Of a stretch of 64,000 nt of DNA, positions 17,805 to 57,600 are shown in pieces. The position numbers were made by a program, and so were the translations under genes. Each line of letters opens with the position of its first letter. The first letter of the stretch is position 1. Source of the stretch: Gautieria morchelliformis (Eukaryota; Basidiomycota; Agaricomycetes; Gomphales; Gomphaceae); contig WHVA01000060.1 of the NCBI GenBank assembly GCA_015179125.1, positions 248,001-312,000 on the forward strand, in the 5' to 3' direction. Below the pieces are notes generated by a model that ran no database searches, had not been told where the DNA came from, and was given only the letters and a program-made list of their open reading frames with translations.

Positions 17805-18231
17805 ACCACGTGACGCGCCGGCCATGTTACAATTCCAACATCATACACATTCCCACTCCACATATCCCCATTCCCCCTGCCCAGAACCCATATCATAAAC
17901 CGTGCCACTAATCATCAGTCCACCCCTCGAACACACACATCTCCACTCGCTACACCACAACGCCCCACCGGTCCACGAGTGTACAGACGATGCAGCCATC
18001 AGCGGATCCGCCCCCGAACCCCGAGACCGAGATGCCCCCACGGATCAGTAGTACGATCGTTCCATCACACGCTCCACTTCGTATAGACGCGTTCCGATTC
18101 TGATAGTTTTCGATCACTCGTTTCCATCCCCCCTTCCCCACATACCACACATTCCTTATGTCCATTTCATACGACTCCTTTCCTATTCGACAAGTAGAAT
18201 ACACGTGCATAACAGCAGCCGGCACCCCAAC
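17805..18231. other. Unassigned stretch between Ty3-A pol and Ty3-B
   Basis: C-rich sequence of about 430 bp without a convincing gene. No LTR matching the Ty3-A leader is present, so Ty3-A seems 3' truncated or this is its non-coding tail. CCAAC precedes the Ty3-B LTR. Confidence 0.4.
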
Positions 18232-18711: not shown

Positions 18712-18898
18712 GCAGAAAAGTCTCTCCCCTAGAGGACCGGCGGTCGTACTGCGCGTTGCATTCGCCATAGGTGCGTTCGGAATCGGAGACAGCGACTCGG
18801 AGATCGCAACCTCTTCCGCACATACAGCGTACGACAGCCCCTCTTCTTACGTCGAGCTCCCAACCCCGGAAACCCCGTCCCATATTGCTCCTTCCAAC

Positions 18899-24193: not shown

Positions 24194-24452
24194 TAGGTGG
24201 CATCAAGGGTCGATCAAGGGTCAGGGGGATGCAGGGTTGATGGCGGGTGCCAAGCGTTGTCCCTGGCTGCGCAGCGTAGTATAATACGGGCTCGCTGACA
24301 TTGGGGGTCCTTAGACTTTTCTCTTTGGATTTCCCCTTGTCAGGTGAGAACCCCCTCTCTTGTATGCTCTGTTCATTTATACATACTTTGGATTTCCCCT
24401 TGTCAGTTGTGTGGTAGTGTGACCTCCACGACTAGCCAGGGTTGCCCTTACA
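23991..24452 (+). repeat. Ty3-B 3' LTR
   Basis: 462 bp, nearly identical to the 5' LTR except for the missing 18 bp unit. It abuts the middle of Ty3-C pol coding sequence directly. Confidence 0.9.
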
Positions 24453-27400: not shown

Positions 27401-27544
27401 CAGCGTATCTCAGCAGCCACATACATGTCCCTCCCTTTCCAGAGATTTCAGAACTTCACAGAACCTTCCAGGCAAACTCTCTTCGACTGGACAGCAGGCA
27501 GGGCTTCTACTCATAATGTCAAGGGTCCAGGACCCCAAAGATAA
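24453..27544 (+). pseudogene. Ty3-C pol fragment: RT, RNase H, integrase, chromodomain; frameshifted
   Basis: The first frame is open from 24453 to 27026, although only the part to about 26590 is real coding. It carries RT with FMDD (near 25034-25045), RNase H and the first part of the integrase including HHCC and both Asp residues. One base is lost near 26590-26600. The catalytic-Glu region (GQTERVNQ) and the C-terminal chromodomain (YEVERILDSRM, near 27235) follow in the other frame, to a TAA at 27542-27544. Two conserved positions also differ from relatives: Trp for Arg after DY in the RT and Asn for Thr in the RNase H (LNDHQ). Confidence 0.8.
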
Positions 27545-34376: not shown

Positions 34377-36839
34377 ATGTTAGCTCGAATACAGGCCCGT
34401 TTGAGAGGGCCTCGGGGCCAGCAACCGCCTGCTGACGCAGACGCTGTGTCTCTTTCCAAAAAGCAGCGTAGGCGCAAAGCTATGGAGCGTGGTATATACC
34501 GGGCCCTGCCAGTCATACGGTAAGGTATGGAGTTTCTGGCTGATTAGTACTTCTCACTTGTTCCTACTACTTTAGAGTCTTTCTATTTATCTTGGGATAC
34601 TCATGGATGTTAATGTTACCTTCCCCTCAACTCGGGAGGGGCATTTACATTGACGAAAATGCATTACAACCTGGCCAGGTGAGCACACTGCGTACACATT
34701 AAGCATAGTATTAACGGTCTGGAACCTTTCTTTAGGTAAACACATACTGGTCTTGGGATGATGTGCATTCCGCGGATGTCTACCTTGGCCATCTAGAACA
34801 ACTGCGCGACCAAAACGCCTCCAGTGTGGAGTGAGTCTTTTTACATGATAACTACCCTTTCAAACTTGACAAATTACCATGCAGGAAATCTTCCTTTGTA
34901 AGGTCAGTTTTCTCAGAGCTTGGAATTCCGGCTGCCACTCAGGGCTACTCGTTCAAAACCGGAACAATGGTTTGTAACTTAGTTCAGGTAGCGACGACCA
35001 TCGGATCACTCATATACCAATTGTAGACCTTAGACGGTATAAATACATACGGCGTACTATCTGCTCCTCGTACTTCTGGAACAGAAGCCATCGTGATCGC
35101 GGCATCTTGGATAAGTTTGACCGCAGGCCCGAATTTACGGGGCATTGCAACAGTTTTGTCACTGGCTGCGTATCTGAAAAGTGTGAAGTCTGCCCTTAAC
35201 ACAGTTAATCACGCATACAAATATATCACACAGGATATTCTCTTTGGGCAAAGGATATTATTTTCATCGTTGGCGACGGATATATGGATGGCATGCAGGC
35301 CTGGTTGGGGGCTTATCATGGGCTTGACCAATCCAGTCAGTCGCATACACTATTCTCAGATTTTTGTAGCTCATTGCGCTCTTTAGATCTGGATGCTGAA
35401 CCCATTAAGCTTCACTCGGGTGTGATTTGGACGGCCCTCGCCATTGATTATCCTGGTCACTCCTTTTCCCATCTAGGCATCTTCTATGGTGCGACTTCCT
35501 ACTTCGAAATGATCTGGTAATAATTACCGTTACGTAGAGGGGCTCAATGGCCGTTTACCCAACCAGGACTTGATGAACAGTTTCCATATCATCTCTACCC
35601 ACACAGGAGGTGTCCCAGTGGTCGTATATGATCATGTGGAGGAACAGATGGACTCCATTATTTCTCGCTGGTTGCCACAGCTTTTCAGTCGACAGGCGTA
35701 CATAAAGGAGTACGCCAGACGTGCACGCAATGTTATTCGACATGTTCGATATCAGGCGTTGGGGAGGGCTAGCGGGGTACATGGTCTGTTTCACCGGTGC
35801 TTGAGATTTTTCTTCCTGTTTCAGCCCGATTCTAACCATGGTATAGTTTCCGAGTTGACGCTATCACGGTTTTTGCTGTGCCAGCAACAGGGCCTCACGG
35901 TTTTCATGCTCTTGGTCGGCAAGTATATCATGTTTATTGCCCATGATGTCTGACATATTTATTGTTGGTAGAGTAATTGAATCTACTCTCCGCACAATGA
36001 ACAATCTATTAGAGCGCCTTCACGCTTCCTTCTTTTTCTACGTTCTCACTGGTCCCGGGACATTCCTAAAAATTGGTCAATATCTCCCCAGCGCGGTAAT
36101 CGTTAGCGTGGCAATGATGTTTGGTGGGCTGCGTGTGTGGGTAGATGCGGGCTGGGTCAAGCAACAGTGGTCTTCTGAAAAGGTCAACCACGGGCCTGCA
36201 GGGAAGGCGCCCAAATGGAAAACGCGTCGTAGGAATGTTATCATTCCGCTTGTCGTCATGCTAGCGACTCATGTTGTCGGCGGGATCACGTTCTTTGTGG
36301 TAACAAATTCCTGGTTTTTGACAAGAACAGACGTCAGTCTCCGTATTTTTATTGTTGGCTGTGCGATGGTAACACGTGACTGCCAGAAAACTACTTATCT
36401 ACCTATTATTCCCCTTTCCCTCATCGTCTTCAGTATCCTCTCCGCGCTCCTCACTTCTGACCAGCCCACAAACTCGCAGCATGATGAACCTTCTCCGGCG
36501 CCGCTGTCTTCTCTTCTCAAAGCGTTCAATCTCTGCCTCGCATCTACAGTCATATCCATTACATCTGTGCTCAACTTTTCTCTCGCAGCTTCCCTCGCTA
36601 TCCTACTCGGAATACCGCTATCTGTATCCTCGCCGACCATAGGCCTTACGTCGAAGATGGCCAAAGCCATGTCGTATTTTATGTTACTGCTCCCCATTTG
36701 GTGGACGTTACTCGCGACGCCAATGTCTCAGTCTATATGGGATTGGCAGGTTTGGGGCGTCTGGTTCGCACCATTCGTTTGCATAGTGTACTTGCCGTTG
36801 GTACTTCAGGCAACGGTCGTGTGCATGTTAGACCCGTAG
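34377..36839 (+). CDS. GAA1: GPI transamidase subunit Gaa1, complete nine-exon gene
   Basis: Exons: 34377-34519, 34576-34678, 34736-34830, 34885-34969, 35027-35180, 35234-35488, 35538-35796, 35847-35918 and 35972-36839. Spliced length is 678 codons. The N-terminus has a basic segment then a membrane anchor (FLFILGYSWMLMLP). The lumenal M28-peptidase-like domain follows with LDGINTYGVLSAPRTSGTEA, GDGYMDGMQAWLGAYHG and NSFHIISTHTG. The C-terminal half has several membrane helices. Gaa1 works in the ER membrane complex that attaches GPI anchors to secreted proteins. The order of blocks and the length fit the family. The eighth intron (35919-35971) uses a GC donor (GCAAGT). The 3' third of the last exon is duplicated at 52.6 and 63.3 kb. 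Confidence 0.85.
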
Positions 36840-38100
36840 CATAATCTCATATATGCCTGAGCATACTTGGACTCTGGCAGGCCAACACTACACATTGCGC
36901 TAGCTAGGCTATACGCTGGTCAAGTGTTAATTCTACTGAAGCTAGAATCAAGACCCACATTCAATACTTATTACAGCAGTGTGCATATATATGTAATATT
37001 AAACAATGCATGTCAGCGAACTCGGAGAACTTGCGATCGCCTCTGTACCTACGCACGACGGTGACCCTCTCTAGCTGGTGGTTTTCTCGCGCTCGCTATC
37101 GAGCGCGGCCTGACACTCTCGAAGAGACACGTCCGAATAAGCATCTTCGATCGCGTATGTATTCTATGTCTACAGACTACAGCATTGAACCGTCTTATCC
37201 ACCAGGAGTGTGTATAAGTGCCAGAGCTTATAACACGTGCCTGGCGGAGATGACGCGCATCGGAGCCCGGGCGTATGGCGCTGCGGCCTATTAATTCCTC
37301 ACATGCGAGTCCATAGTCGACGCATGCAGCTCCAAGACGAGCCGAAATTTCACGGTTGGATATCGGTTAGGGCGTGAGCAGCTCGACGACGTACAGGGGA
37401 GCTTGGCGAGTGTTGCAAAAAGCGTCGCGACGTCGAAGGGAGCAAACTCAAAATCGATAAATTGGGCATGCATGCGCCGACTCATAGCGCTTGGCGTGGT
37501 GTGTTGTATGAGGGTAAGGAAGTTACACATCACGAATTTTGCGGTTGACTTGTTTATTTTTATTTTGGCTTTCGACGGCCGTAGGCGTACCAGCTAAGGA
37601 GTAGGCGCGGTGGTTGATGGAGCATCCGGCCGTGGCTGAGGTTGAGCTCCCATGTGATGTGGGAAGTGCTGCGAAGGAGCTCTTGGGAAACTTCCGTCTG
37701 CTAAATATTTTTATTGAATGACAAGGCCCATCGGTGCAGTCGATACGTGACCGAGATGTGGGCTCATCCGCGCGCGGATAGAACATCTAGGAAACAACGT
37801 CACTTTGGACCAACGGCGAAGACCTTGATTGTTATATATGAATTTGTGTTTCCACATTTACAGCGACTTCAATGCGGATCAAAAATGACATAGTATGTAA
37901 TGGTCTACTTCAACGTTCATATGCATGATGACAGCTCATATACAGTATATCAACCTTGATCAACTAGCCCCTTGATTCGCGAGGTATATCGGATGTGGTG
38001 TTTAACCTGTATCATCTATACCTAAAGGCCAGGACCGAATGCATAGCCCATGTGGCCAGCAGCACCTTCTGCTATTCACCTTCACCTCCCGGCAAAGAGA
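36840..38100. repeat. Downstream block of GAA1 shared with the tandem units (S1)
   Basis: Matches 52979-54080 and, as far as the window reaches, 63691-64000. It includes repeat R (37005-37440) and a conserved block at 37520-38100 starting TTATTTTTATTTTGGCTTTCGACGG (first 20 of which suffice to find it). The minus-strand frame 37523-37786 is similar in the copy at 53533-53864 but unrecognised. No supported gene. Confidence 0.65.
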
Positions 38101-38107
38101 TTCTGAC

Positions 38108-38305
38108 TGTTCTTTATTCTTGGCAATTCTAGCGCGCGTGAGTTTTTTATCGTTGTCAATTCCAGCCGCGCGTGAGTCTGGCCTCACCTACTCCTCTGTT
38201 CTTTCTTCATACTGATTTCTCGTCGTTTCTTATCACTAAAAGAAGGTAGAGCCGACGCCGCAACAGTTCTTTATTGTTGTAAACTCTAGCGCGCGTGAGT
38301 CAGGC
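38108..38305. repeat. Three short copies of a TTCTTTATT...TCTAGCGCGCGTGAGT unit
   Basis: Similar units of about 35 bp start near 38118, 38148 and 38266, each ending GCGCGTGAGT. This is where S1 diverges from its copy at 54.08 kb, so it marks a rearrangement edge. Confidence 0.5.
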
Positions 38306-38361
38306 TTCGACCTTTTTTTTCATATACGCTGTGAGATGCTTGCCTAACGGGAAACTTACAG

Positions 38362-38607
38362 ATGCTCCCACATTGCTGCAAGTACTGCCATCGCAGTTTC
38401 CGTACACGACAGGGCCTCCGTGCGCACCTGACCACCCGGGCCTCTTGTCACTTGGCCCATGAGGCGTCGCTGGCACAGCAAGCGATAAGGCGGTATGACC
38501 CGCATGACCCCGAGGCACTGTTTCGGGAAGACGACCCACCTCTGGGCTGGGAGGATGAGGCTATCGATGTCACGTTCGACGACATTGGTATTATTATATT
38601 ATGTTAA
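38362..38607 (+). CDS. C2H2-like zinc-finger fragment, possibly from a Plavaka/KDZ-type transposon
   Basis: 81 residues beginning with a finger of the form C-x2-C...H...C (PHCCKYCHRSFRTRQGLRAH), followed by an acidic segment. Single N-terminal fingers of this style open the first ORF of some basidiomycete DNA transposons. The frame runs into a perfect palindrome (38589-38631) and stops, so the gene is cut off. The family call is tentative. Confidence 0.35.
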   Translation: MLPHCCKYCHRSFRTRQGLRAHLTTRASCHLAHEASLAQQAIRRYDPHDPEALFREDDPPLGWEDEAIDVTFDDIGIIILC

Positions 38608-38631
38608 TTGAATTAACATAATATAATAATA
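38589..38631. repeat. Perfect 43 bp AT palindrome
   Basis: 21 bp arms meet at a single central G (38610). The right arm is also the start of the partial copy of the 39.9 kb region. The left arm is its inverse and ends the zinc-finger frame. The structure looks like an inverted-duplication junction or a strong cruciform. Confidence 0.85.
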
Positions 38632-38775
38632 TCAAATAGCAATACAGAAAGCATAAGAGTTAAAAAGGGCTAGAGCGAGGTTCCGGACGGAAGACCGTTG
38701 AGGGGCGGGCAATACGGGACAAACCTAGAGTCAAAAACTGCTGCGTCCCCTTTGTTTTCCTGCTGAGGGAGAACT
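38612..38775 (-). repeat. Degenerate copy of the last exon of the 39.96-44.02 kb gene
   Basis: Matches 39890-40095: ATATAATAATATC, GGGCGGGCAATAC and GCTGCGTCCCCTTTGTT are shared. On the minus strand it still reads GDAAVFDSRF...YCPP before an early stop. Next to it, 38759-38792 forms a 15 bp hairpin (CCTGCTGAGGGAGAA). Confidence 0.65.
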
Positions 38776-39197
38776 ATTCTCTCTCAGCAGGAGAAGAAAG
38801 GGGAGGCATGGTTTCGGCGCTCTAGATCCTCTCTAGAGATAACCCGCACACACGCCCTCCCCCTCGCTGCCAGTGCTACCGGCCCACGTGGGGCGTGGTG
38901 GTGGTGGTGAGAGAGGAAGAACGTTACTAGTAGTATACTTTATAAGGTCAGGATCCAGAAGGATTGGAGAATTACCTACCATACCGTAGCTTATTAAAAC
39001 CTTGTTCTATATGTCGCAGGCGTAGACTAATTAGTACTGAGACATAATTAGATGACTGACCTCGTGGGGAGTTCTTGATGCGATCCACTGGCCCAAGTAC
39101 CGACGTTCCGTCGGATTCTGGTTCGGTCTGGGGTATTCAGACTTTCACCTGTGCTGAATACTCAAACCAGTGATTCTACAAGAATGCGTAGATAACG
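38776..39197. other. Stretch without a supported gene
   Basis: Mixed sequence of about 420 bp. A (GGT)n run lies near 38895-38910. No coding or RNA feature was recognised. Confidence 0.4.
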
Positions 39198-39465
39198 CTA
39201 CATTACTGACCCCCAAGGCCTATGTATCATGTGGGTCGGGTGCATACTGCGGCATACTTTGAATGGTGGTAGCTGATGCTCGGGGCAGCAGGCATGCGCG
39301 AGATCGTCAGGGTGAAGGCAGAACGAGAAGAAAGTGGTATATGAGGGGACGGATGTATAGAACAGTGGGGTCACTCTCGATCGCTCGGGCAATCGATCGA
39401 CATGCGACGCGTAATATAGAATTCGATCTGTCCAAGAGGGCACCCGTTTTTCACTGGTTCACGAT
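39198..39465 (-). pseudogene. Fragment of an inositol polyphosphate 5-phosphatase
   Basis: A minus-strand exon carries EKRVPSWTDRILYYA (about 39455-39411). This is the conserved P-x-W-x-D-R-I-L signature near the end of the IPPc catalytic domain, followed by about 20 residues to VPSYTT. The next conserved part (DHKPV) is not found in a clear exon, and the upstream catalytic blocks are missing. A neighbouring frame at 39479-39703 is not recognisably part of it. A short gene fragment or an unresolved exon structure are both possible. Confidence 0.45.
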
Positions 39466-39963
39466 CCAGGTCTGTAAATCAGAGCCAGAGATGCCTTAAT
39501 TTGATCGCAAATCGAGATGCTCGCACATAACAAGGAGCGTTATACTCTCGTCGCACGAGAAGTCTTCGTCCGTGTTCATCCTCGGCCAGAGACCATTCAT
39601 CTCCAAGGCCGGGTGGACCTCCCTGGCTTGTGAGTGCCGTTACTCGCCAAGATAGAGTATCAAGCTTGAAGCTCGTAATCAGGAAGAGGCAACTAACTTC
39701 CACTGGAGCGCTCAGCCGCGTCCTACTAGTACTCGCCCTCTGATCTCACATGAGCAAACTGCAAATTTCCCCCCTGCGCGACGAAATTGTGACCCCCCAC
39801 TGCGAAGAGTAGCAAATTCTACAATGCGCATGCGACGGATAAGTATAGTTGGGAAGATTACTGTGGTTTCTTAGTTTCTTAAAATAAATGAACATAATAT
39901 AATAATAATATCAAGTACTAGCAATACAGTACAGAAAGAACGAGAATTAAAAAGCAGGGGAAA
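39466..39963. other. Stretch without a supported gene
   Basis: No conserved coding signal was seen. The last 80 bp is AT-rich and matches 38612-38640, giving the 3' flank of the repeat-protein gene. Confidence 0.35.
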
Positions 39964-42900
39964 CTAACGAGAACATCGAGCAAGGTCAACTAGATTGCGC
40001 ACGGAGGACTGTGCCTGTATGTCCGCACGTTTGAAGGGCGGGCAATACCCAATAAACCTGGGATCAAACACTGCTGCGTCCCCTTTGTTCTGCGGCTGAG
40101 GCAGAATGTCCGCACAGAATATCTTGGGACCAAATACATCGGTTAAAGATTGTTCGACGGGGATTGGGGGCACGTCCTTCTGTGCGACGAACTCCATCGA
40201 ATAATCTTTGTGTCGTGCGCAGCGCGGGGGATCAAAATGGTCCCTGCGTAGTAAGTAATCAGTTCACGCAAAGCATTGGAAACCAGCAAAATACTCACAG
40301 CTGCGATGAGTTTGTGCTCGTCCTGACCAACCTTAGAACGCGCCGTACGAGGTTCGACTGCCGCTCAATCGCTAGCGGATCATATATGGATCTCCCCGGC
40401 AGAGTGTCGACAGTCTCCCTGTGTACTAATTCATCAGCTCACGCAAAACATTGGAGACCAGCAAAATACTCACGGCTGAGATGAATGTGTGCTCGTCCTG
40501 ACGAACCTTAGAACGCGCCGTGCGAGGTTCGACTGCCGCTCAATCGCTAGCGGATCGAACATGGTTCTCCCCGGAAGAGTGTCGACAGTTTCCCTGTGTA
40601 ATAATCCATCAGCTCACGCAAAACATTGGAGACCAGCAAAATACACTCACGGCTGCGACTGATCCGTGCGCCTCCCTGCAGATTTTGAACCCGGGGTATT
40701 AATCATATCTCTCCACACTTGCTGATCGCTACACAAGGCGGTTAGTAAAGCACGCTTTCATTAAAACACATAGAACTAAACCAACCATCGCGGGGGTGAC
40801 AACTGGGGGGGACTGGTTGAAACATGCTTCGTTTGTATGTCTTCCCCTCTGATAAATTCCAGAGGACACGTTTTCCTGGGGGCGGCGCCCCGTGCGAACT
40901 TTCGTATCGTGGATTCGCGCTAAATCTCTCCAGCATCGAATATGAAGGAATCGTCCCTGCATAGTAATTCATCAGTACACGCAAAACTTTGGAAACCAGA
41001 AGACCGTAAAATACGCACAGCTGCGACTCATCCGTGCGCCTCCCTGCAGATTTTGAACCCGAGGTATTAATCATATCTCTCCACACTTGCTGATCGCTAC
41101 ACAAGGCGGTTAGTAAAGCACGCTTTCATTAAAACACATAGAACTAAACCAACCATCGCGGGGGTGACAACTGGGGGGGACTGGTTGAAACATGCTTCGT
41201 TTGTATGTCTTCCCCTCTGATAAATTCCAGAGGACACGTTTTCCTGGGGGCGGCGCCCCGTGCGAACTTTCGTATCGTGGATTCGCGCTGAATCTCTCCA
41301 GCATCGAATATGAAGGAATCGTCCCTGCATAGTAATTCATCAGTACACGCAAAACTTTGGAAACCAGAAGACCGTAAAATACTCACAGCTGCGACTCATC
41401 CGTGCGCCTCCCTACAGATTTTGAACCCGAGGTATTAATCATATCTCTCCACACTTGCTGATCGCTACACAAGGCGGTTAGTAAAACACGCTTTCATTAA
41501 AACGCATAGAACTAAACCAACCACGGCGGGGGTGATAACTGGGGGGGACTGGTTGAAACATGCTTCGTTTGTATGTCTTCCCCTCTGATAAATTCCAGAG
41601 GACACGTTTTCCTGGGGGCGGCGCCCCGTGCGAACTTTCGTATCGTGGATTCGCGCTGAATCTCTCCAGCATCGAATATGAAGGAATCGTCCCTGCATAG
41701 TAATTCATCAGTACACGCAAAACTTTGGAAACCAGAAGACCGTAAAATACTCACAGCTGCGACTCATCCGTGCGCCTCCCTACAGATTTTGAACCCGAGG
41801 TATTAATCATATCTCTCCACACTTGCTGATCGCTACACAAGGCGGTTAGTAAAGCACGCTTTCATTAAAACGCATAGAACTAAACCAACCACGGCGGGGG
41901 TGATAACTGGGGGGGACTGGTTGAAACATGCTTCGTTTGTATGTCTTCCCCTCTGATAAATTCCAGAGGACACGTTTTCCTGGGGGCGGCGCCCCGTGCG
42001 AACTTTCGTATCGTGGATTCGCGCTGAATCTCTCCAGCATCGAATATGAAGGAATCGTCCCTGCATAGTAATTCATCAGTACACGCAAAACTTTGGAAAC
42101 CAGAAGACCGTAAAATACTCACAGCTGCGACTCATCCGTGCGCCTCCCTACAGATTTTGAACCCGAGGTATTAATCATATCTCTCCACACTTGCTGATCG
42201 CTACACAAGGCGGTTAGTAAAGCACGCTTTCATTAAAACGCATAGAACTAAACCAACCACGGCGGGGGTGATAACTGGGGGGGACTGGTTGAAACATGCT
42301 TCGTTTGTATGTCTTCCCCTCTGATAAATTCCAGAGGACACGTTTTCCTGGGGGCGGCGCCCCGTGCGAACTTTCGTATCGTGGATTCGCGCTGAATCTC
42401 TCCAGCATCGAATATGAAGGAATCGTCCCTGCATAGTAATTCATCAGTACACGCGAAACTTTGGAAACCAGAAGACCGTAAAATACTCACAGCTGCGACT
42501 CATCCGTGCGCCTCCCTACAGATTTTGAACCCGAGGTATTAATCATATCTCTCCACACTTGCTGATCGCTACACAAGGCGGTTAGTAAAACACGCTTTCA
42601 TTAAAACGCATAGAACTAAACCAACCACGGCGGAGGTGATAACTGGGGGGGACTGGTTGAAACATGCTTCGTTTGTATGTCTTCCCCTCTGATAAATTCC
42701 AGAGGACACGTTTTCCTGGGGGCGGCGCCCCGTGCGAACTTTCGTATCGTGGATTCGCGCTGAATCTCTCCAGCATCGAATATGAAGGAATCGTCCCTGC
42801 ATAGTAATTCATCAGTACACGCGAAACTTTGGAAACCAGAAGACCGTAAAATACTCACAGCTGCGACTCATCCGTGCGCCTCCCTACAGATTTTGAACCC

Positions 42901-44022
42901 GAGGTATTAATCATATCTCTCCACACTTGCTGATCGCTACACAAGGCGGTTAGTAAAACACGCTTTCATTAAAACGCATAGAACTAAACCAACCACGGCG
43001 GGGGTGATAACTGGGGGGGACTGGTTGAAACATGCTTCTTTGTTATGTCTTCCCCTCTGATAAATTCCGGAGGAAACGGTTTCCTGGAGGCGGAGCGCCG
43101 TGCGAAGTGTTGTATCGTGGATTCACGCTGGATCTCTCCAGCATCGAATATGAAGGAATCGTCCCTGCATAGTAATCAGTACACGCAAAACTTTGGAAAC
43201 CAGAAGACGGCAAAGTACTCACGGCTGCGAGTTCTTCGTGCTCTTCCTTGGAGACTCTGGCCATGCGAGCGTTGATTCCCCTTGAATGTCTAACGGATCA
43301 GATATAAAAAAATCGGTCAACCCGGGTATGTGAGCCTCGGTGAACTCGAATGGTGACTCGGTGCACGATCCGGAACACTGGGCTGCCGCCTCGATATCGC
43401 TGACACGGTCATCTATCACTGCCGTTGACGAAGAGAAATCTTGAGGAGACCATGCACTATCGGCTTTCTCATCTCCGCGGCGAGCCTTGTGGGAGTGTCC
43501 GCAAGTGCCAGCCGTTCCCAGGAGGCTACCCAACGCAATACCCAACGCAATACCCAATGCAATACCCAACGCAAGCCAGAACACGCTATAACCGATCGTG
43601 ACCGAACCATTAGGCCTACAGAGGACGTCCGAGGGAACATCGGAAGCAATGGATACGGAGTGATTCGTGGCTGATTGCGATGGTTCAGCCTGCACCACAA
43701 CCACTTGAAGTATCGGCGTCGGTTTATCGTTATTGAGGTTATTCGAGTGAGGCGGGGAAGCGGGGGCAACCACTTGAAGTTTCGGCGTCGGTTTATCGCT
43801 ATTGATGTTATTCGAGTGGGGCGGGGAAGCGGGGGCAACCACTTGAAGATCGCCATTGAGGTTATTCCAGTGGGGCGGGGCAGCGGGGGAGGCGTACTGG
43901 AAGATATCAAGCGAGACCGAAGGGACGGTCACCGCGATTATATACAGGCCGATACAGCTCTGCAAAAAGACGTATACGTGATGGAGGTTCATGTTCAAGT
44001 GTAGCGATTGAGGCCTTTGCAT
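39964..44022 (-). CDS. Unrecognised membrane protein with seven intron-containing tandem coding repeats
   Basis: Exon 1 (44022-43223; likely start 43992) begins with a signal-like hydrophobic segment. It continues with three copies of a Pro/Asn-rich unit (QVVAPASPPHSNN), a membrane helix containing GIALGIALGIAL, and a charged tail ending in an ISDPLDIQGEST unit. Seven 368 bp repeats follow. Each has an exon of 171 nt (for example 43164-42994 and 40956-40786) and one of 78 nt (42936-42859, 40728-40651), with introns of 57 and 62 bp. All exons keep phase 2, so each repeat adds exactly 83 residues starting DDSFIFDAGEIQREST. Two 120 nt exons (40593-40474, 40418-40299) with a related FDPLAIERQSN motif and a last exon (40243-39964) complete 1020 residues. 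The seventh repeat holds a TAG at 40920-40922, which would end the protein unless that exon is skipped. Consistent frame and splice sites argue for a real gene. I do not recognise the family. Confidence 0.65.
40651..43164. repeat. 368 bp tandem array, about 6.8 copies
   Basis: Successive copies are spaced exactly 368 bp (exon 1-type borders at 40956, 41324, 41692, 42060, 42428, 42796; 43164 in the most diverged copy). Inner copies are almost identical. The copy at the 43.1 kb end and the one at the 40.7 kb end differ most, as expected for an array homogenised from the middle. The spacing unit includes two exons and two introns of the gene above. Confidence 0.95.
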
Positions 44023-44901
44023 GACGGCCCCTTCTTATACTGTGCAGTGGCAGGTAGGGTGGCTGACAACAGCCAGCCGCTCTATTTGCCTCTACACAAC
44101 ACCGAAGGCGAGGCCAGACAATGGTCTGAATTTCTATTATTGACCATGAAGCTATTCTTGCAGGGATTTGTCGTCTGTATAATCGCTGTAATCGCTGTAT
44201 AATCGCGGCAGTGGTGCAGTCATGCATGATATAAACGTGATCGACTGTTGCCACGCTCCCGGGTCCCGCCATCTTCCTGGTCCGGGCAGCTTCGTTCGTC
44301 TCGGCATGTCGCGCGCTTGGCCTCTACCAGCGCGCCTCCCGTCTATTCGTACAGTATGAAGACTCTAATAGAGGCCAAGTCTAAGTGTGCATCTTTCAAC
44401 CCCCTTCACATGTACGGTGAGGACATACATGAGGGTGCTTTATAGATCGGTACTCGCTGGTCTTTTCTCTTGTAGTATATCTGACTAAAGAAAGTTGTCT
44501 CTATTGTCTGTTGGGGCGTTATCTTACTGAAGAGATGAGCATACTCAGTCGCGAGGCCCACTGTTTCTTGGTATGTCGTGATGCTTCGGGAACCCTCCTG
44601 CGAACAGCTGTCCCCAGTCGTGTAAGCGGTTGTTTATGAGCAAGTCGTCACCAAATTTCGAAGTCGCACTTTGCTACTGTAACAGCGTACTGCGATGTGG
44701 AGATGGAGATGACGAGGTTTCTGAGGCTTCAGGGCACGTGTGAACCGTTTCCTGTGCCTTGCCTCGTGGGCGAATTGCATAGCGTTGGTTGTCACGGCCC
44801 TAAACGGCACTAGGGCATTGCCCCGACGAGCGTCAGAATGTCTATATATGAGATGGCAGCGCTGGACTGTCGAGCACCCCCACAACCATCGACTCGATTT
44901 G
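44023..44901. other. Upstream region of NLR1
   Basis: The last 460 bp (from 44439, TTTATAGATCGG) matches 54103-54606 upstream of NLR2 and marks the left edge of the tandem duplication. The minus-strand frame over 43907-44272 is not convincing. No other gene was found. Confidence 0.5.
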
Positions 44902-47900
44902 ATGGCTGAAGCTCTGGCGGGTCTGGGCGTAGCAGGCAAGTTGGCTATACTTATTTTCCTTCTACTACGATGCTCATCAATCCACTCAGCGAGCGTCATT
45001 GCCGTTGTCCAGCTCACCGAAGATGTTATCGGCAAGTGCTCCGCGTATGGAACTGCGTACAGGAATGCGTCCAGAGATATGAGCAGACTCAGTGACCAGA
45101 TCTCCGGGCTACGTCAGGTGCTCATTGACCTGAATGGGCTCATAGTGGCCGAGGACGTCCAAAGGACCTCTCGATTGCCAACTTTGATGGCCGCCCTCAG
45201 TATATCCAATGAGCCTCAAACTTCTGGCCGGCCTCCCGAGCTGACAAACGGCGGGGATGGCTCGCGACCTGGCAATGGACCCACTGAATCCATGCCAATT
45301 GGGCATGCGAGTCTCCTGAAAAGCCTCTTGAAGAAGCTCAAGCGCAAAGGACGCGGGAATACGATAGAAGGCCGGTCTGAATGCACAGATAGCATAGGGT
45401 ATCCCCCTGGGACAACTAGCAATTTCGGGACAACGTCGGAAATCCATGTTGAACGCACAGATGGCATCGCCCCTGCGACTACTGGTGATGGCTTAACAAC
45501 TGAAGGTGGCAATACAGGAGGGACTGCGTCGGACAGCAACAATGATCGCATGAGTTTACCTCGTGTCCTTAGGGATTGTCACGACGAGCTGCAGAGCCTG
45601 GCGAAGAAGCTAGAGACAAAGGATGTACGCGCATCTCGCATGGAAGCGTTGTTTTACACATTCAAGCAAGGCGAGGTTAACAAGACTCTTGAGAACCTCC
45701 AAAGGTTCCAGCAGCAGCTTGTTGCGGCATTGGCCATTGATCAAGCGTAGGTTTGACTGCCTAACTGCGGACTGCAGCTGATGCTTTCATGTCGACAGAC
45801 GTTTGGTGCTGGAGACACATGATAACCAACGTCGTCAGGATATCTATAATTGGCTGTCTGCTCCTGACAATGAGTCGAAACATTTGACTGCCATCACGGA
45901 GCGAGAAGGAAACACCGGCGCGTGGTTTGTGCAGGGAGACTGTTTCCAGGAATGGAGAGGGAAGCCCAAGTCGTTCCTATGGCTTCATGGCAAGGGTGCG
46001 TTCTCTGCTTAGCTTATTTATGGTCGTCGCTGATTAGTATACACAGCTGGTGCAGGGAAGACTATCTTATGGTATATAACTCAAACCTATCGAGATATCT
46101 AGTTATCATGCTAACAAATGCGTGTATCAAGCTCGACCATCATTAGGGAGATCTCCCGTCACTGCGAATCAGACTCCTCGCTCGCAATCGCATTCTTCTA
46201 TTTTGATTTTCACAGCAAGGATACAAAGCCACCTGCCGTCCTTCGTGCACTGATTAAACAGCTGTCCGCGAGGACCTCTGCAAAGACATCCCCGAAGATC
46301 CCTGACTATCTGGCGGACTTATTCTCTAGAAAAGGGGATGGGAAGCAATCACCATCTTCCGAGGAACTGGAGTCGACACTAAAGTCCATCGTTGGGACTT
46401 TCAAGAATGATGTGTATATCATCTTCGATGCCCTTGACGAATGTCCAGATCGACCTGAATTTCTGAAACTGATCACAGAAATCCAAGGATGGAATTTTGA
46501 GAAATTACACCTCCTAGCAACGAGTCGGGACGAGCAAGACATTGAGAAGACACTGAGGGACCTGGTTTCCCATCAGGTACCCATGGATGAGAGTCTCGTC
46601 GACGGCGATATCCAAGTCTATGTGTCAAGACAGTTGAAAGACCCCAAATTTAGTAGATACTCGGAAGAAAAAAGGGAAACCATCGAGACTACTTTAATGG
46701 ATGGTGCGCATGGCATGTATGTGATCATTTTCACGTTCTCGGGGAGCGCTACTAACGGGTCAGGCAGGTTTCGATGGGTTGTTTGTCAGCTAGATTCACT
46801 ACGAAAGTGCCGATCTCCCCACGAGCTCCAGATGGCACTCACCGATCTACCACCGACTCTATACGAGACCTACGATAGGATTCTCCTACACATCAACGAG
46901 CGCGATAGAGTACATGCTCTCAAATTGTTGCAATGGCTCGCTTTCGCGGTCGAAAGGGTGTCGCTCAGCGAGGCTGTGGATGTACTCGCTACGAATGCTG
47001 ACGCCGTAAATGGTCCCTTTTTCGACCGGGATAGGCGGTTTGATGATCCACGGGACATCCTGGCCATATGCTCGAGCCTGGTCACCTTTAGCGTCGTGCA
47101 GCCAAACCCAAATCATTTCGAGTCCAAGGAACGGGAAGGATTCACAGAGCTCAAGCTGGCACATTTCTCCGTGCGCGAATATTTGGTCTCGGAAGGCCTC
47201 CGCAGCCACTTGAAGCTGGCCATTTATCACTGCAACGAAAAACAGGCCAATACATTCATTGCCAAGACATGTGTAGCCTACTTGCTGCAATTCAACCAGC
47301 ATGGTTGCATAAGCAAGGGTACACACATATCCCATCCACTATGTTCATATGCTGCGCGAAACTGGATTCGCCATGCCCAGCCAGATAATGACAATGACAT
47401 TGATTTGTGCCGACTGATTATGGCTCTTCTTCAATCAAAGGATGCAGGGGTGTACTCAAATTGGCTTGATCTTAAAAATCCAAATTCCAAAGAGAGAGGC
47501 GCTCCCATCTACTATACATCAATGGCTGGGTTAGCAAGAGCATGCCAGGATCTTTTGGAGAAGGGAGCAGATGTCAATGTGCAAGGTGGCGAGTATGGAA
47601 ATGCACTCCAGGCGGCATCATTAGGGGGTCATCAAGCTACTGTGGAGCTGCTCCTGGACAAGGGAGCAGATGTCAATGCGCAAGGTGGCTTTTATGGAAA
47701 TGCACTGCAGGTGGCATCATTAGAGGGCCATCAGGCCACCGTTGAGCTGCTCCTGGAGCAGGGAGCAGATGTCAATGCGCAAGGTGGCTTTTATGGAAAT
47801 GCACTCCAGGCGGCGTCATTAGAGGGCCATCATGCTACTGTTGAGCTGCTCTTGGAGAAGGGAGCAGATGTCAATGGGCAAGGTGGCGAGTATGGAAATG

Positions 47901-50900
47901 CACTCCAGGCGGCATCATCATGGGGTCATCTGGCCACTGTTGAGCTCCTCCTGGAGAAGGGAGCAGATGTCAATGTGCAAGGTGGCTATTATGGAAATGC
48001 ACTGCAGGCGGCGTCATTAGGGGGTGATGAAGCTATTGTTGGGCTGCTCCTGGAGAAGGGAGCAGATATCAATGCACAAGGTGGCAAGTATAGAAATGCA
48101 CTGCAGGGGGCATCATTAGTGGGTCATCCAGCTACTGTTGAGCTGCTCCTGGACAAGGGAGCAGATGTCAATGTGCAAGGCGGCTGGTGGGGAAATGCAC
48201 TCCAGGCAGCCTCATCAGTGTGTGATAAGGCCACTGTTGAGCTGCTCCTTCAGAAGGGAGCAGATGTCAATGCGCAAGGTGGTAAGTATGGAAATGCACT
48301 CCAGGCCGCATCATCAAGGGGTTTTCAGGCCATTGTTGAGCTGCTCCTGGACAAGGGGGCAGATGTCAATGGGCAAGGGGGCAAGTATGGAAATGCACTC
48401 CAGGCGGCGTCATTAGAGGGCCATCAGGCCACTGTTGAGCTGCTCCTGGACAATGGAGCTGATGTCAATGCGCGAGGTGGTGAGTATGGAAATGCACTCC
48501 AGGTGGCATCATTAAAGGGTCATCATGCCACTGTTGAGCTGCTCCTGGACAAGGGAGCAGATGTCAATGCGCAAGGTGGCGAGTATGGAAATGCACTCCA
48601 GGTGGCATCATTAAAGGGTCATCACGCCACTGTTGAGCTACTCCTGGACAAGGGAGCACATGTCAATGCACAAGGTGGCGAGTATGGAAATGCACTCCAG
48701 GCAGCGTCATCAGAGGGGCATCAGACCACTGTGGAGCTGCTCTTGGAGAAGGGAGCAGATGTCAATGCGCGAGGTGGCAAGTATGGAAATGCACTCCAGG
48801 CGGCGTCATCAGAGGGCCAACATGCCACTGTTGAGCTGCTCGTGGAGAAGGGAGCAGATGTCAATGCGCAAGGTGGTGAGGATGGAAATGCACTCCAGGC
48901 GGCATCATCATGGGGTCATCTGGCCACTGTTGAGCTCCTCCTGGAGAAGGGAGCAGATGTCAATGTGCAAGGTGGCTATTATGGAAATGCACTGCAGGCG
49001 GCATCATTAGGAGGTGATGAAGCTATTGTTGAGCTGCTCCTGGAGAAGGGAGCAGATATCAATGCACACGGTGGCGAGTATAGAAATGCACTGCAGGGGG
49101 CATCATTAGTGGGTCATCCAGCTACTGTTGAGCTGCTCCTGGACAAGGGAGCAGATGTCAATGTGCAAGGCGGCTGGTGGGGAAATGCACTCCAGGCAGC
49201 CTCATCAGTGTGTGATAAGGCCACTGTTGAGCTGCTCCTTCAGAAGGGAGCAGATGTCAATGCGCAAGGTGGTAAGTATGGAAATGCACTCCAGGCCGCA
49301 TCATCAGGGGGTTTTCAGGCCATTGTTGAGCTGCTCCTGGACAAGGGGGCAGATGTCAATGGGCAAGGGGGCAAGTATGGAAATGCACTCCAGGCGGCGT
49401 CATTAGAGGGCCATCAGGCCACTGTTGAGCTGCTCCTGGACAATGGAGCTGATGTCAATGTGCTAGGTGGCGAGTATGGAAATGCACTCCAGGTGGCATC
49501 ATTAAAGGGTCATCACGCCACTGTTGAGCTGCTCCTGGACAAGGGAGCACATGTCAATGCGCAAGGTGGCGAGTATGGAAATGCACTCCAGGCAGCGTCA
49601 TCAGAGGGGCATCAGACCACTGTGGAGCTGCTCCTGGAGAATGGAGCAGATGTCAATGTGCAAGGTGGCTGGTGGGGCTATGCACTCCAGGCGGCGTCAT
49701 CAGCGGGTCATCAGGCCATTGTTGAGCTGCTCCTGGAGAAGGGAGCAGATGTCAATGCGCAAGGTGGAAAGTATGGAAATGCATTGCAGGCGGCGTCATT
49801 AGGGGCTCATCAAGGTACTGTTCAGCTGCTCCTGGACAAGGGAGTGGATGTCAATGCGAAAGGTGGGGAGTATGGAAATGCACTCCAGGCGGCATCATCA
49901 TGGGGTCATCAGGCCACTGTTGAGCTGCTCCTGGAGAAGGGAGCAGATGTGAATGTGCAAGGTGGTTGGTGGGGCTATGCACTCCAGGCGGCGTCATCAG
50001 CAGGTCATCAGGCCATTGTTGAGCTGCTCCTGGAGCAGGGAGCAGATGTCAATGCGCAAGGTGGCAAGTATGGAAATGCATTGCAGGCGGCATCCTTCGG
50101 GGCTCATCAAGTTACTGTTCAGCTGCTCCTGGACAAGGGAGCGGATGTCAATGTCCATGGTGGCAAATATGGCAGTGCACTGCAGGTGGCATCACTAGTG
50201 GATCAACATGCCATTGTTGAGCTACTCCTGGAGAATGGAGCAGATGTCAATGCACAAGGTGGTGATTGTGGAAATGCACTCCAGGTGGCATCATCACGGG
50301 GTCATCAGTCCACTGTTGAGCTGCTCCTGGAGAATGGAGCAGATGTCAATGTGCAAGGCGGCTGGTGGGGCAATGCACTCCAGGCAGCGTCATTCATGGG
50401 TCATCAGGCCACTGTTGACCTGCTCCTGGACAATGGAGCTGATGTCAATGCGCGAGATGGTCAGTATGGAAATGCACTCCAGGTGGCATCATTAAAGGGT
50501 CATCACGCCACTGTTGAGCTGCTCCTGGACAAGGGAGCACATGTCAATATGCAAGGTGGCGAGTATGGAAATGCACTCCAGGCAGCGTCATCAGAGGGGC
50601 ATCAGACCACTGTGGAGCTGCTCTTGGAGAAGGGAGCAGATGTCAATGTGCAAGGTGCCTATTATGGAAATGCACTGCAGGCAGCGTCATTAGGGGGTCA
50701 TCAAGCTACTGTTGCTCTGCTCCTGGACAAGGGAGCAGATGTCAATGCCCAAGGTGGTGAGTATGGAAATGCACTCCAGGCGGCGTCGTCAGAGGACCAT
50801 CAGGCCACTGTTGAGCTGCTCCTAGAGAATGGAGCAGATGTCACTGTGCAAGGTGGCAAATATGGCAGTGCACTCCAGGCGGCATCATCAGAGGGTCATC

Positions 50901-51001
50901 GGGCCATTGTTGAGTTGCTCTTGATGAGTGCCACACATATGCAGCATAGGACCGACGGCACTCAGGCTGATGCTCGACCACACCCATCTTTATGCATTTG
51001 A
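44902..51001 (+). CDS. NLR1: fungal STAND protein with NACHT domain and about 34 ankyrin repeats
   Basis: Exons: 44902-44935, 44990-45746, 45799-45995, 46047-46071, 46132-46716 and 46768-51001, giving 1943 residues. The N-terminus (MAEALAGLGVA...) resembles the Helo-like domain of fungal STAND proteins. The NACHT has its P-loop (KAGAGKTIL) across the exon 3-5 junctions and Walker B VYIIFDALDEC near 46420-46450. A winged-helix-like region follows, then 33-residue ankyrin units (QGG..GNALQ...ATVELLL..GADVN). Units 4-9 and 14-19 match at 990 bp spacing. Such proteins sense ligands through the repeats, oligomerise through NACHT, and trigger programmed death or defence through the N-terminal domain. 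That role is inferred from the family. The first intron has a GC donor. Reading frame is intact throughout. Confidence 0.85.
47580..50935 (+). repeat. Coding 99 bp ankyrin repeat array of NLR1
   Basis: About 34 near-identical units of 99 bp, with a 10-unit (990 bp) higher-order duplication and a smaller 3-unit one near 49660-50090. Differences between units cluster at the residues after QGG and around the SS-E/W/R-GH turn. Confidence 0.9.
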
Positions 51002-52978: not shown

Positions 52979-54102
52979 CATAATCTCATTTACGCCTGAG
53001 CATCCTTTGACTCTGGCGTACGAAGGCCAACACTACACATTGCGCTAGCTCTAGCAGGCTATATATGTAGTCGTGTTAATTCTATCGAAGCTAGAATCAA
53101 GACGCAGACATTCAATATTACACCAGCTTGCACAATGTAATATTATAAACAATGCACCGACTTGTGGCAGCGAAATCGACGGAGAACTTGCGATCGCCTC
53201 TGTACCTACGCACGGCGGTGACCCTAGCTCGTGCGGGTAAGCATCACCGTGCCTGGCGGAGATAACGCACATAGGAACCCGGGCGTATGGCGCGGGTCGC
53301 TGACCTTTCTGACCCCTGGCGTGCCGGGTCGAGCGACCTATTCCTCACATGCAGCTCGAAGACGAGCCCAAATTTCACGGTTGGATATCGGCTAGGGCGC
53401 GGTAAGCAGCTCGACGAGATACTGGGGAGCTTGGCGAGTGTTCCCTGTTCCAGAAGGCGTCCCGACGTCGAAGGGTGTTGTATGAGGGTAAGGAATTTTG
53501 AAACACATCACGAATTTTGGGGTTGACTTTTTTTATTTTTTGTTTGGCTTTCGACGGCCGTAGGCGTACCAGCTAAGGAGCGGGCGTGGTGGTTGATGGA
53601 GCATCCAGCCGTGGCTGAACTTGATCTCCCATGTGATGTGGGAGGTACTGCGGAGGAGCTCTTGGGAAACCTCCGTCTGTGAAATATTTTTATTGAATGA
53701 CAAGGCCCATGGGTGCAGTGGATACGTGGCCGAGATGTGCGACTCATCCGCGCACGGATAGAACATCTAGGAAACAACGTCACTTTTGACCAATGGCGAA
53801 GACCTTCATCGTTATATGAATTTGCTTCTGTTTCCACACGTACAGCGACTTCAATGCGGATCAAAGTGGCATAGTACGTAACGGTCTACTTCAACGTTCA
53901 TATGCGTGATGACGGCTCATATACAGTATGCCAACCTTGGTCAACTAGCCCCTTGATTCGCGAGGTATATCGGCTGTGGTATTTACCCTGTATCATCTAT
54001 ACCTAAAGGCCAGGACCGAATGTACAGCCTACGTGGCCAGCAGCACCTTCTGCTATTCACATTCACCTCCCGGCAAAGAGGTTCTCTAAACTGATATTCT
54101 GA
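52979..54102. repeat. GAA1 downstream block, copy 2 (S2)
   Basis: Matches 36840-38100, including repeat R at about 53145-53460. Unlike S1 it leads directly into the NLR2 upstream region at 54103, with only about 22 bp between. The 6.3 kb at 38.1-44.4 kb is absent here. Confidence 0.75.
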
Positions 54103-54606
54103 TTTATAGATCGGTACTTGCTGATCTTGTTTTTGCTCACGAGAATTATACATCCGAACGTCTGACGGCGAAGTATATCTTCCCTGACTAAAGAAGGTTG
54201 TCTCTATTGTCTGTTGGGGCGTTATCTTACTGAAGAGATGAGCATACTCAGTCGCGACGCCAACTGTTTCTTGGTATGTCGTGATGCTTCGGGAACCCTC
54301 CTGCGAACAGCTGTCCCCAGTCGTGTAAGCGGTTGTTTATGAGCAAGTCGTCACCAAATTTCGAAGTCGCATTTTGGTAATGTAACAGCTGCGATGTGGA
54401 GATGGAGAGTGCGAAGTTTCTTACGTTTCAGTGCACGTGTGAACCGTTTCCTGTGTAGACCCTTGCCTCGAGGGCGAAGCGCATAGCGTTGACTGTCACA
54501 GCCCTAAACGGCGCTAGGGCATTGCCACGACGAGCGTCAGAATGTCTATATATGAGATGGCAGCGCTGGACTGTGGAGCACCCCCCACAACCATCGACTC
54601 GATTTG

Positions 54607-57600
54607 ATGGCTGAAGCTCTGGCAGGTCTGGGAGTAGCAGGCAAGTGTGCTATATACTCGTTTAGATTCGACTGCTATGCTCATCAATCCACTCAGCGAG
54701 TGTCATTGCCGTTGTCCAGCTCACCGAAGATGTTATCGGCAGGTGCTCCGCGTATGGAACTGCATACAAGAATGCGTCCAGAGATATGAGCAGACTCAGT
54801 GACCAGATCTCCGGGCTACGTCAGGTGCTCCTTGACCTTAATGGGCTCATAGTGGCCGAGGACGTCCAAAGGACCTCTCGATTGCCAACTTTGATGGCCG
54901 CCCTCAGTATATCCAATGAGCCTCAAACTTCTGGCAGGCCGCCCAAGCTGACAAACAGCGAGGATGGCTCGCGACCTGGCAATAGACCCACTGAATCGAT
55001 GCCAATTGGGCATGCGAGTCACCTGAAAAGCCTCTTGAAGAAGTTCAAGCGCAAAGGACGGGGGAATGCGATAGAAACCCGGTATGAACGCACAGATGGC
55101 ATAGGGTATCCCCCTGCGAGAACTAGCAATTCCGGGAATATGTCGGAAACCCATGGTGAACGCACAGATGGCATCGCACACGCCCCTGCGATAACTGGTG
55201 ATGCCCTAGCAACTGAAGGTGGCAATACAGCAGGGAATGCGTCGGACAGCAACAATGATCGAATAAGTTTACCTCGTGTTCTTAGGGATTGTCACGATGA
55301 GCTGCAGAGCCTGGCGAAGAAGCTAGAAACAAAGGATGTACGCGCATCTCGCATGGAAGCGCTGTTTTACGCATTCAAGCAAGGCGAAGTGAACAAGACT
55401 CTCGACAACCTCCAAAGGTTCCAGCAGCAGCTTGTTGCGGCATTGGCCATTGATCAAGCGTAGGTTCGACTGCCTAACCGCGGACTACAGCTGATCCCTT
55501 CATGTCGACAGACGTTTGGTGCTGGAGACACACGATAATCAACGTCGTCAGGATATCTATAATTGGCTGTCGGCGCCTGACTACGAATCGAAACATTTGA
55601 TTGCCATCACGGAGCGAGAAGGAAACACCGGCGCGTGGTTTGTGCAGGGAGACTGTTTCCAGGAATGGAGAGGGAAGCCCAAGTCGTTCCTATGGCTTCA
55701 TGGCAAGGGTGCGTTCTCTGCTTAGCTTATTGATGGTCGTCGCTGATTAGTATACACAGCTGGTGCAGGGAAGACTATCTTATGGTATATAACTCAAACC
55801 TATTGAGATATCTAGGCATCCTGCTAACAAATGCGTGTACCAAGCTCGACGATCATTAGGGAGATCTCCCGTCACTGCGAATCAGACGCCTCGCTCGCAA
55901 TCGCATTCTTTTACTTTGATTTTCACAGCAAGGATACAAAGGCACCTGCCGTCCTTCGTGCACTGATTAAACAGCTGTCCGCGAGGAGGTCTGCAAAGAC
56001 ATCTCCGAAGATCCCTGACTATCTGGCGGACTTATTCTCTAGAAAAGGTGATGGGAAGCAATCACCATCTTCGGAGGAACTGGAGTCGACACTCAAGTCC
56101 ATCATTGGGACTTTCAAGAATGATGTGTATATTATCTTCGATGCCCTTGACGAGTGCCCGGATCGACCTCAATTTCTGAAACTGATCACAGAAATCCAAG
56201 GATGGAACTTTGACAAATTGCACCTCCTAGCGACGAGTCGGTACGAGCAAGACATTGAGAAGACACTGAGGGACTTGGTTTCACATCAGGTACCCATGGA
56301 TGAGAGTCTCGTCGACGGCGACATCCAAGTCTATGTGTCAAGACAATTGAAGGATCCCAAATTCAGTAGATACACGGAAGAAAAAAGGGAAACCATCAAG
56401 ACTACTTTGATGGACGGTGCGAATGGCATGTATGTGATCATTTTTGCTTTCTCGGGGACCGCTACTAATGTGTCAGCCAGGTTTCGATGGGTTGTTTGTC
56501 AGCTGGATTCACTGCGAAAGTGCCGATCTCCCCACGAGCTCCAGATGGCACTCATTGATCTACCACCGACTCTCTACGAGACCTACGATAGGATTCTCCT
56601 ACACGTTGACGAGCGCGATAGAGGGCATGCTCTCAAATTGCTGCAATGGCTTGCTTTCGCGGTCGACAAGGTGTCACTCAGCGAGGCTGTGGATGTACTC
56701 GCTACGCATGCTGATGCCGTAGATGGTCCCCTATTCAACCAGGATCGGCGGTTTGATGATCCACGGGACATCCTGGCCATATGCTCGAGCCTGGTCACCT
56801 TTAGTGTCGTGCAGCCAAACCCAAATCCTTTCGACCCCAAGGAACGGGAAGGATTCACAGAGATCAAGCTGGCACATTTCTCCGTGCGGGAATATTTGGT
56901 CTCGGAAGGCCTCCGCAACCACGTCAAGCTGACCATCTATCATTGCAGCGAAAAACAGGCTAATACATTCATTGCCAAGACATGCCTAGCCTACTTGCTG
57001 CAATTCACCCAGCATGGTTGCATAAGCGAGGGTACACGCATATCCAATCCACTATGTTCATATGCTGCGCGAAACTGGATTCGCCATGCTCAGCCAGATA
57101 ATGACAATGACATTGATTTGCGCCGACTGATTATGGCTCTTCTTCAATCAAAGGATACAGGGGTGTACTCAAATTGGCTTGAGCTTAAAAACCCAAATGC
57201 CAAAGAGAGAGACACTCCCATCTACTATATGTCAATGGCTGGGCTAGCAAGAGCATGCCAGGATCTTTTGGAGAAGGGAGCAGATGTCAATGCGCAAGGT
57301 GGGTGGTGCGGCAATGGACTGCAGGCAGCGTCATTAGGGGGTCATCAAGCTACTGTTGAGCTGCTCCTGGACAAGGGAGCAGATGTCAATGCGCAAATTG
57401 GCTATTATGGAAATGCACTCCAGGCGGCGTCATCAAAGGGCCATCAGGCCACTGTTGAGCTGCTCTTGGAGAAGGGAGCAGATGTCAATGCACGGGGTGG
57501 CGAGTATGGAAATGCACTCCAGGCGGCGTCATCAGAGGGCCGTCATGCCACTGTTGAGCTGCTCTTGGAGAAGGGAGCAGATGTCAATGCGCAAGATGGC

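Follow-up and report, generated by a model that had tools for sequence, protein, structure and literature searches.

A putative membrane protein family with intron-bearing tandem coding arrays in Gautieria morchelliformis

Coding tandem repeats that carry complete introns have been described before in a basidiomycete. The accessible text of Sharpton et al. 2008 (PMC2395259) presents CNN00420 of Cryptococcus neoformans as a single-copy gene with a repeat of about 107 nt that holds one complete intron each; the gene has six introns in all, near-identical introns are noted, expressed sequence tags support the introns, and repeat number differs between strains. Unequal crossing over, conversion or slippage is given as the cause of the expansion. 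The fast-evolving bicycle genes of aphids are reported to have numerous short internal exons of the same phase, phase 2 (PMC9168663, available portion), and the micro-exon genes of schistosomes have exons of 3–81 bp according to the abstract of PMC10526429. Here we describe a gene on the minus strand (44022-39964) of a 64,000-nucleotide stretch of the genome of Gautieria morchelliformis, a basidiomycete of the Gomphales (hereafter the window; C671:248001-312000 of a 122 Mb assembly in 1113 contigs, with coordinates given without a contig name referring to the window). The gene contains an array of seven intron-bearing units and belongs to a family of related loci, a relative of which has built up an array of another kind.

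As in CNN00420, intragenic tandem repeats of a basidiomycete gene hold complete GT-AG introns, here at the level of sequence rather than RNA. The window gene differs from that gene, as far as its accessible description goes, in its 368-bp unit with two introns, in having seven or five units, in symmetric phase-2 exons, and in belonging to a family of loci that includes a paralogue with another array; the two are likened by anatomy. Since CNN00420 already provides an example of intron-containing repeats that vary in number, the genetic process is known, and it is the family and the scale that look new. No publication describing this gene family was found in the literature searched, a search outside which most subscription papers lie.

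Tandem Repeats Finder reported an array at 40645-43230 with a period of 368, 7.0 copies, 98% matches and a score of 4876. Read from an ATG at 44022, the gene model comprises 18 exons and 3063 nt in total (800, 7 × (171 + 78), 120, 120 and 280 nt; Table 1). All 17 introns have GT-AG ends, split a codon in phase 2 and contain a branch-point-like CTRAY within 40 nt of the 3' end. Introns within the array measure 57 and 62 bp and the four introns at its edges 58, 57, 55 and 55 bp, and each 368-bp unit amounts to two introns plus 83 codons. Tandem growth is visible at four scales in this one gene, namely 12, 69, about 175 and 368 bp. We regard the predicted exon-intron anatomy as well supported. 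Repeat finding and gene model agree on what had been proposed from the letters of the stretch alone (hereafter the original prediction): seven 368-bp repeats each encoding 83 residues through a 171-nt and a 78-nt exon with 57-bp and 62-bp introns, phase 2 throughout, and a diverged form of the motif at the end of exon 1 and in both 120-nt exons. Its further statement that the frame closes over all exons stood for the 18 exons and the 3063 nt but not for an open frame, which is broken by a TAG at codon 777. This stop, the wider gene family, the differing array of the paralogue on contig C282, the conserved C-terminal exon and the insertion setting of the gene were not part of that prediction.

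Table 1. Coordinates of the gene, its parts and its surroundings in the window.
Feature	Position	Strand	Basis
Insertion of 6.33 kb, as judged against the upstream sequence of seven related NACHT/ankyrin-type loci	38105..44438		locus comparison
Dispersed repeat of 484 bp, from the N-terminal zinc-finger part of a Plavaka-type transposase gene	38105..38588	+	genome copies
Second C-terminal exon of a family member, degraded, with 3' region	38590..38845	-	
AT-rich palindrome at the junction of Plavaka fragment and family 3' region	about 38590-38633		
C-terminal exon, 280 nt, family-conserved: FGPKIxCxDILPQ...FDPRFxGYxPPFxRADIQAxSS	39964..40243	-	
Two 120-nt exons with diverged motif FDPLAIERQSN / YDPLAIERQSN	40593-40474, 40418-40299	-	about 175-bp repeat
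Seven-unit array: 171-nt exon, 57-bp intron, 78-nt exon, 62-bp intron; the intron that follows unit 7 has 57 bp	40651..43164	-	
62-bp intron before the first exon of unit 7; sole GTGCGT donor among 17 introns	40957..41018	-	
Exon 1, 800 nt	43223..44022	-	gene model, repeat finding, hydropathy on C536 copy
First motif copy, in exon 1: FISDPLDIQGEST	within 43223..44022	-	gene model
Transmembrane-like segment of exon 1	about 43501-43605	-	hydropathy on C536 copy
12-bp tandem repeat inside the transmembrane-like segment	43527-43574	-	repeat finding
P/S-rich stretch of exon 1 with 69-bp repeats	43698-43852	-	repeat finding
Hydrophobic N-terminus of exon 1	residues about 13-41	-	hydropathy on C536 copy
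Neighbouring gene in divergent orientation, separate from the gene described; NPHP3_N/NACHT-like product with about 34 ankyrin repeats	46115..51001	+	

The TAG lies at 40922-40920 (minus strand) in the unit 7 exon 40956-40786, where the motif reads FDAGEI*REST against FDAGEIQREST in the window module. Under plain splicing it would remove 244 residues from the end of the protein, the part encoded by the conserved C-terminal exon among them. The window copy is therefore probably truncated unless the exon that holds the TAG is skipped.

When the assembly was searched with the 83-residue unit, at least 18 matches came back, at least seven of them in the window and at least five on contig C536, with more distant ones on C2 (at least two), C282 (at least three) and C1026 (at least one). 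The C536 gene (C536:42606-45927) has 14 exons, five units and an open frame of 854 codons, a difference of whole units from the seven of its close relative in the window. Repeat number, which the original prediction expected to vary between strains, thus differs between two loci of one assembly. Units 2–5 of the window differ from one another at 0–2 of 306 positions across exon, intron and exon, in keeping with the proposal that introns are homogenized together with exons, and the units at the edges are the most diverged. In a tree of units, window unit 1 groups with the first two C536 units (99/99 support), such that first-type and second-type units number one and six in the window array and two and three in the C536 array. 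A homogenized middle with diverged edges is the pattern that would be expected from unequal exchange or slippage. That the two copies are alleles of one locus is disfavoured because, of the 30 kb of C536 used in the comparison, only ~5 kb can be aligned (pieces >400 bp listed); a rearranged haplotype is possible.

The family has at least seven loci in this genome. Searching with the C-terminal exon gave 10 matches on seven contigs (C671, C536, C282, C633, C1026, C260 and, in two pieces, C643), including a second, degraded C-terminal exon downstream of the gene in both C671 and C536, and searching with exon 1 gave seven matches on C671, C536, C643, C282 and C260. The sole protein found with the full-length C536 query was the hypothetical protein JB92DRAFT_2864566 of Gautieria morchelliformis (P0001), which maps residue for residue onto C282 and is a deposited prediction of that locus made independently of the original prediction. 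It has 16 exons there, separated by 15 introns that all lie in phase 2; 13 measure 48–49 nt, and the other two introns, of 450 and 694 nt, step over further array units. Twelve of the 14 internal exons are 153 or 156 nt and the remaining ones 132 and 393 nt. The C282 array differs from that of the window in its unit of 201–205 bp with a single intron; the core motif is common to both, the C282 module (RCAEVQEECAIP) and the window module having the pattern [DE][IV]QxE[SC] in common. A strict motif pattern, picked after the sequences had been seen, occurs 18 times in C282, seven times in the window protein (0.010 expected from shuffled proteins) and six times in C536; for none of the three do the shuffles give an expectation above 0.014. 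C282 keeps the signal and transmembrane plan and the C-terminal exon of the family, and its outer part has its own 78-bp repeats in place of the 69-bp repeats of C671. In the C282 locus (C282:344436-349900), P0001 starts inside exon 1 and the frame stays open to an upstream ATG with a signal-like segment as in the relatives.

C633 has the small modules FDPLEIQREST, VFEPQREST and RFEPQREST, with 3/3 module introns in phase 2, and this few-module locus looks like a simpler starting form. Two proteins from the Joint Genome Institute (JGI), P0002 and P0003, carry the C-terminal domain; they come from contigs of 2448 and 4262 bp, probably metagenomic, and have the strict motif twice and once, respectively, with no array in either of these short contigs. 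Protein searches, some of which scored only the 8000 candidates sharing most words, returned no relatives beyond P0001–P0003.

Evidence for coding constraint centres on the C-terminal exon. The ratio of non-synonymous to synonymous substitution rates (dN/dS) was 0.10–0.50 in all 14 comparisons between diverged loci, values calculated on match-bounded stretches (partial for C1026 and C260, with C643 and the degraded second exons left out), a choice that biases towards conserved parts. Between C671 and C536 this exon has two synonymous differences and no non-synonymous one, and its identity among five relatives, including P0002 and P0003, is 58–71%. For exon 1, with the start, the outer part and the transmembrane segment, three comparisons gave dN/dS values of about 0.59–0.77; the broken C643 is one member of the pair in two of them.

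In the hydropathy profile of the C536 protein, hydrophobic segments lie at residues about 13–41 and about 140–174, the second followed by HSHKARRGDE. Basic residues after a transmembrane segment mark the inner side of the membrane (the positive-inside rule), and the array would therefore be cytosolic. The outer part has about 110 residues in C536 and is longer, with its own repeats, in C282, and a charge-hydropathy rule calls the C536 tail disordered. The 12-bp repeat that lengthens the transmembrane segment (GIALGIALGIALG) is present in C671 and C536 and not in C643 and C282.

On these grounds we consider it somewhat probable that the family encodes single-pass surface proteins with a cytosolic tail that serves as a multivalent docking array and lengthens through the exchange of symmetric exons. 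Members of such a lineage-restricted family of membrane proteins would start with a hydrophobic signal at the N-terminus, followed by a short P/S-rich outer region that changes fast and by a single transmembrane helix with the basic KARRGDE stretch behind it; then would come a long inner tail, probably disordered, built of modules, each with one copy of a motif of roughly [FY]D-P/A-x-[DE]-[IV]-Q-x-E-[SC]-[ST], and closed by a conserved domain some 90 residues long. Exons that encode the modules are symmetric, being phase 2-2 and divisible by three in length. Exons of 171 and 78 nt with these phases can be lost, gained or skipped without a change of frame, and the array can therefore grow together with its introns; units would be gained and lost by unequal exchange or slippage. 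Since the motif and the last 90 residues are conserved and spacing, unit and number are variable, the tail looks like a multivalent docking array, in which each motif may be a docking or modification site and repeat number may set how many partner molecules are bound. The window copy would be a duplicate inserted upstream of a gene of the NOD-like receptor (NLR) type.

A bolder version of this proposal, which we put forward tentatively and think doubtful as it stands, is that the signalling valency of a receptor-like family is set in whole-intron steps. Inherited recombination and exon skipping in individual transcripts would then both change motif number without breaking the frame, two paralogues would have arrived at this state independently from different modules, and the window copy could bypass its TAG by skipping. 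What the family offers in any case is one short motif multiplied in related genes via different exon-intron units, beside relatives with few modules. This makes it testable whether symmetric exons let intron-bearing tandem arrays grow and whether the number of repeats in a cytosolic tail tunes binding. It is also a gene type that annotation may handle badly, as the C282 model, which begins inside exon 1 and steps over several units, illustrates.

Fungal signalling mucins and cell-wall sensors of the Msb2/Wsc type consist of a signal, a P/S/T-rich outer part, one transmembrane segment and an inner tail. By hydropathy and composition only, the predicted proteins resemble them in signal, P/S/T-rich outer part and single transmembrane helix, but they differ in the short outer part, in the position of the most-expanding repeats in the tail and in having no WSC domain (Pfam, C536 protein). 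The known or putative secreted products of bicycle and micro-exon genes are not known to have a membrane anchor after the signal. This absence of an anchor, common to those products and to the SP7-like type of effector, is not found here, as a second hydrophobic segment occupies residues about 140–174. Small internal exons of a single phase (78, 120 and 171 nt, with 17/17 introns in phase 2) are a likeness to bicycle and micro-exon genes as far as these are described; those, however, are animal genes, whereas in the window gene the exons repeat one or two modules and a transmembrane-like segment is present. We claim no relation in sequence. Compared with the schistosome exons of 3–81 bp (PMC10526429, same portion), the internal exons of the window gene are larger on the whole. 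The SP7-like effectors of Rhizophagus are likewise repeat proteins of a mycorrhizal (arbuscular mycorrhizal) fungus with repeats that end in a short conserved stretch, but they act in plant nuclear condensates, according to the accessible part of PMC11333574, and the proteins predicted here have a transmembrane-like segment and a conserved C-terminal domain.

Several observations weigh against the docking-array proposal. The frequency of differences between C671 and C536 is about equal in unique exons (13/1320), introns (3/168) and upstream sequence (4/367), and higher only downstream (67/1072); the pair is therefore uninformative about coding, and a coding-specific signal looked for in it was not found. 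Among the array units the ratio of non-synonymous to synonymous differences per site (pN/pS) is 0.78, indicating at most weak constraint on the unit, and by the charge-hydropathy rule both the outer part and the C-terminal domain come out as folded. In the C536 protein no Pfam family reaches its curated cutoff and no PDB entry matches by sequence at E up to 1. These two results agree with the original prediction of no known family, to which CNN00420 of Cryptococcus is an exception as a precedent for the plan. The closest Pfam entry for C536 is UBA2_C (24.8 bits against a cutoff of 25, E 3.3e-5, residues 259–295, where exon 1 meets unit 1), with two other matches weaker; P0001 does exceed the cutoff for NT-C2 (29.0 against 25.2 bits, E 9.7e-7) over 45 array residues. 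For neither entry does a single stretch pass by itself, and we take both scores as sums over repeats, not as family membership. Finally, damage in the form of stops, frame changes or missing parts affects five of the seven loci that have a C-terminal exon: besides the window copy these are C643 (its last exon changes frame and a stop lies close to the first ATG), C1026 (a frame change), C260 (stops) and C633, for which the exon 1 search of the assembly did not find the N-terminal part of that exon. The copies with open frames are C536 and C282.

This damage, together with the in-frame TAG and the odd donor at unit 7, also fits an explanation to which we give an even chance, that the window copy is a dying duplicate, a C536-related segment placed within an NLR cluster, its array being without a function of its own; this is compatible with the docking-array proposal for C536 and C282. 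The setting of the gene agrees with it. The uninterrupted form of the site was found at all seven related loci examined (two on C285, one each on C266, C540, C781 and C237, and one at 54040-54240 of the window, which belongs to a second such gene in the window and differs by one base), seven being the number of loci read among further related loci listed in the genome. Relative to this empty site the window form lacks about 17 bp, and its inserted segment is joined to a fragment of a transposase gene, a longer copy of which, on C193, matches PF18759 (E 4.4e-87). No target-site duplication was seen and no terminal inverted repeat was found at the ends of the insertion, where 93 of 300 shuffles attained the best 20-mer similarity, and we infer a repair-type insertion of a duplicated segment, not transposition. 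Cargo of a Pack-type transposon is rejected on the same absence of terminal inverted repeats and on the loss of target sequence. The notion of a decaying duplicate is countered by exon 1 and the C-terminal exon, which are nearly identical to the intact copy (8/1080 positions differ), by the remaining array exons, which keep frame and splice sites, and by exon symmetry, through which one skip might bypass the TAG.

That the units are non-coding satellite DNA or transposon cargo merely resembling exons would account for their high identity, introns included, and for the transposase fragment at one end, but we think this scarcely credible: satellite DNA is rejected because frame-preserving units occur in two different arrays and the C-terminal exon has a low dN/dS, and the deposited model with its phase-2 introns, the relatives in other JGI contigs and the shuffle result at the insertion ends argue in the same direction. 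Slightly less remote, though still very improbable, is a membrane protein that acts as divergent partner of the neighbouring NLR-type gene, activating or guarding it. The divergent layout, with about 0.7–0.9 kb from the gene start to the first reading frame on the NLR side, suggests such a pairing; it is disfavoured because none of the seven related NLR loci examined has the gene at the corresponding site, and in 50 kb around the C536 copy no ankyrin-like frame was seen (frames of at least 170 residues, their first 110 residues read by eye). An effector-like repeat protein of the plant interface, secreted or on the fungal surface, with its repeats turned outward to act on the host, is unlikely but deserves somewhat more weight. 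Gautieria morchelliformis is called ectomycorrhizal in the available part of PMC7550596, the binding strength of SP7-like effectors rises with repeat number according to PMC11333574 (accessible part), no relative in a named other species was found, the outer part changes fast and repeat number is variable. Set against these points, the second strongly hydrophobic segment and the basic residues before the array place it inside by the positive-inside rule, and the constrained part of the protein is its C-terminus, the fast part being the presumed outer one.

Minor observations concern dispersed pieces of the family and the surroundings of the gene. Isolated FDPLEIQ motif exons occur at C2:95100 and C2:142604, the former adjoining a retrotransposon-like frame that resembles window 14427-17804. 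C643 and C633 have common sequence just upstream of their motif exons (LAKHMAEIIDHYSS...), part of which is repeated in C643 and which looks like an insertion into exon 1. Window 36000-36986 is 99% identical to C633:11993-12979, C633 also bearing a family member, and other family members likewise have an AT-rich stretch after their last exon (matches to window 38611-38666). On the other side of the gene, the NPHP3_N/ankyrin-type genes at 47556-50920 and 57269-61622 carry a 99-bp ankyrin repeat in about 34 copies (83% matches) and about 44 copies (85% matches), respectively, with many relatives in the genome; the Pfam scan covered the first of these genes. The second ankyrin array seems to shift frame around 60.4–60.9 kb (overlapping frames 55828-60900 and 60429-61652). 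Window 11262-27544 holds long Ty3-type polyprotein-like frames in three blocks that have, by eye, the look of reverse transcriptase and integrase.

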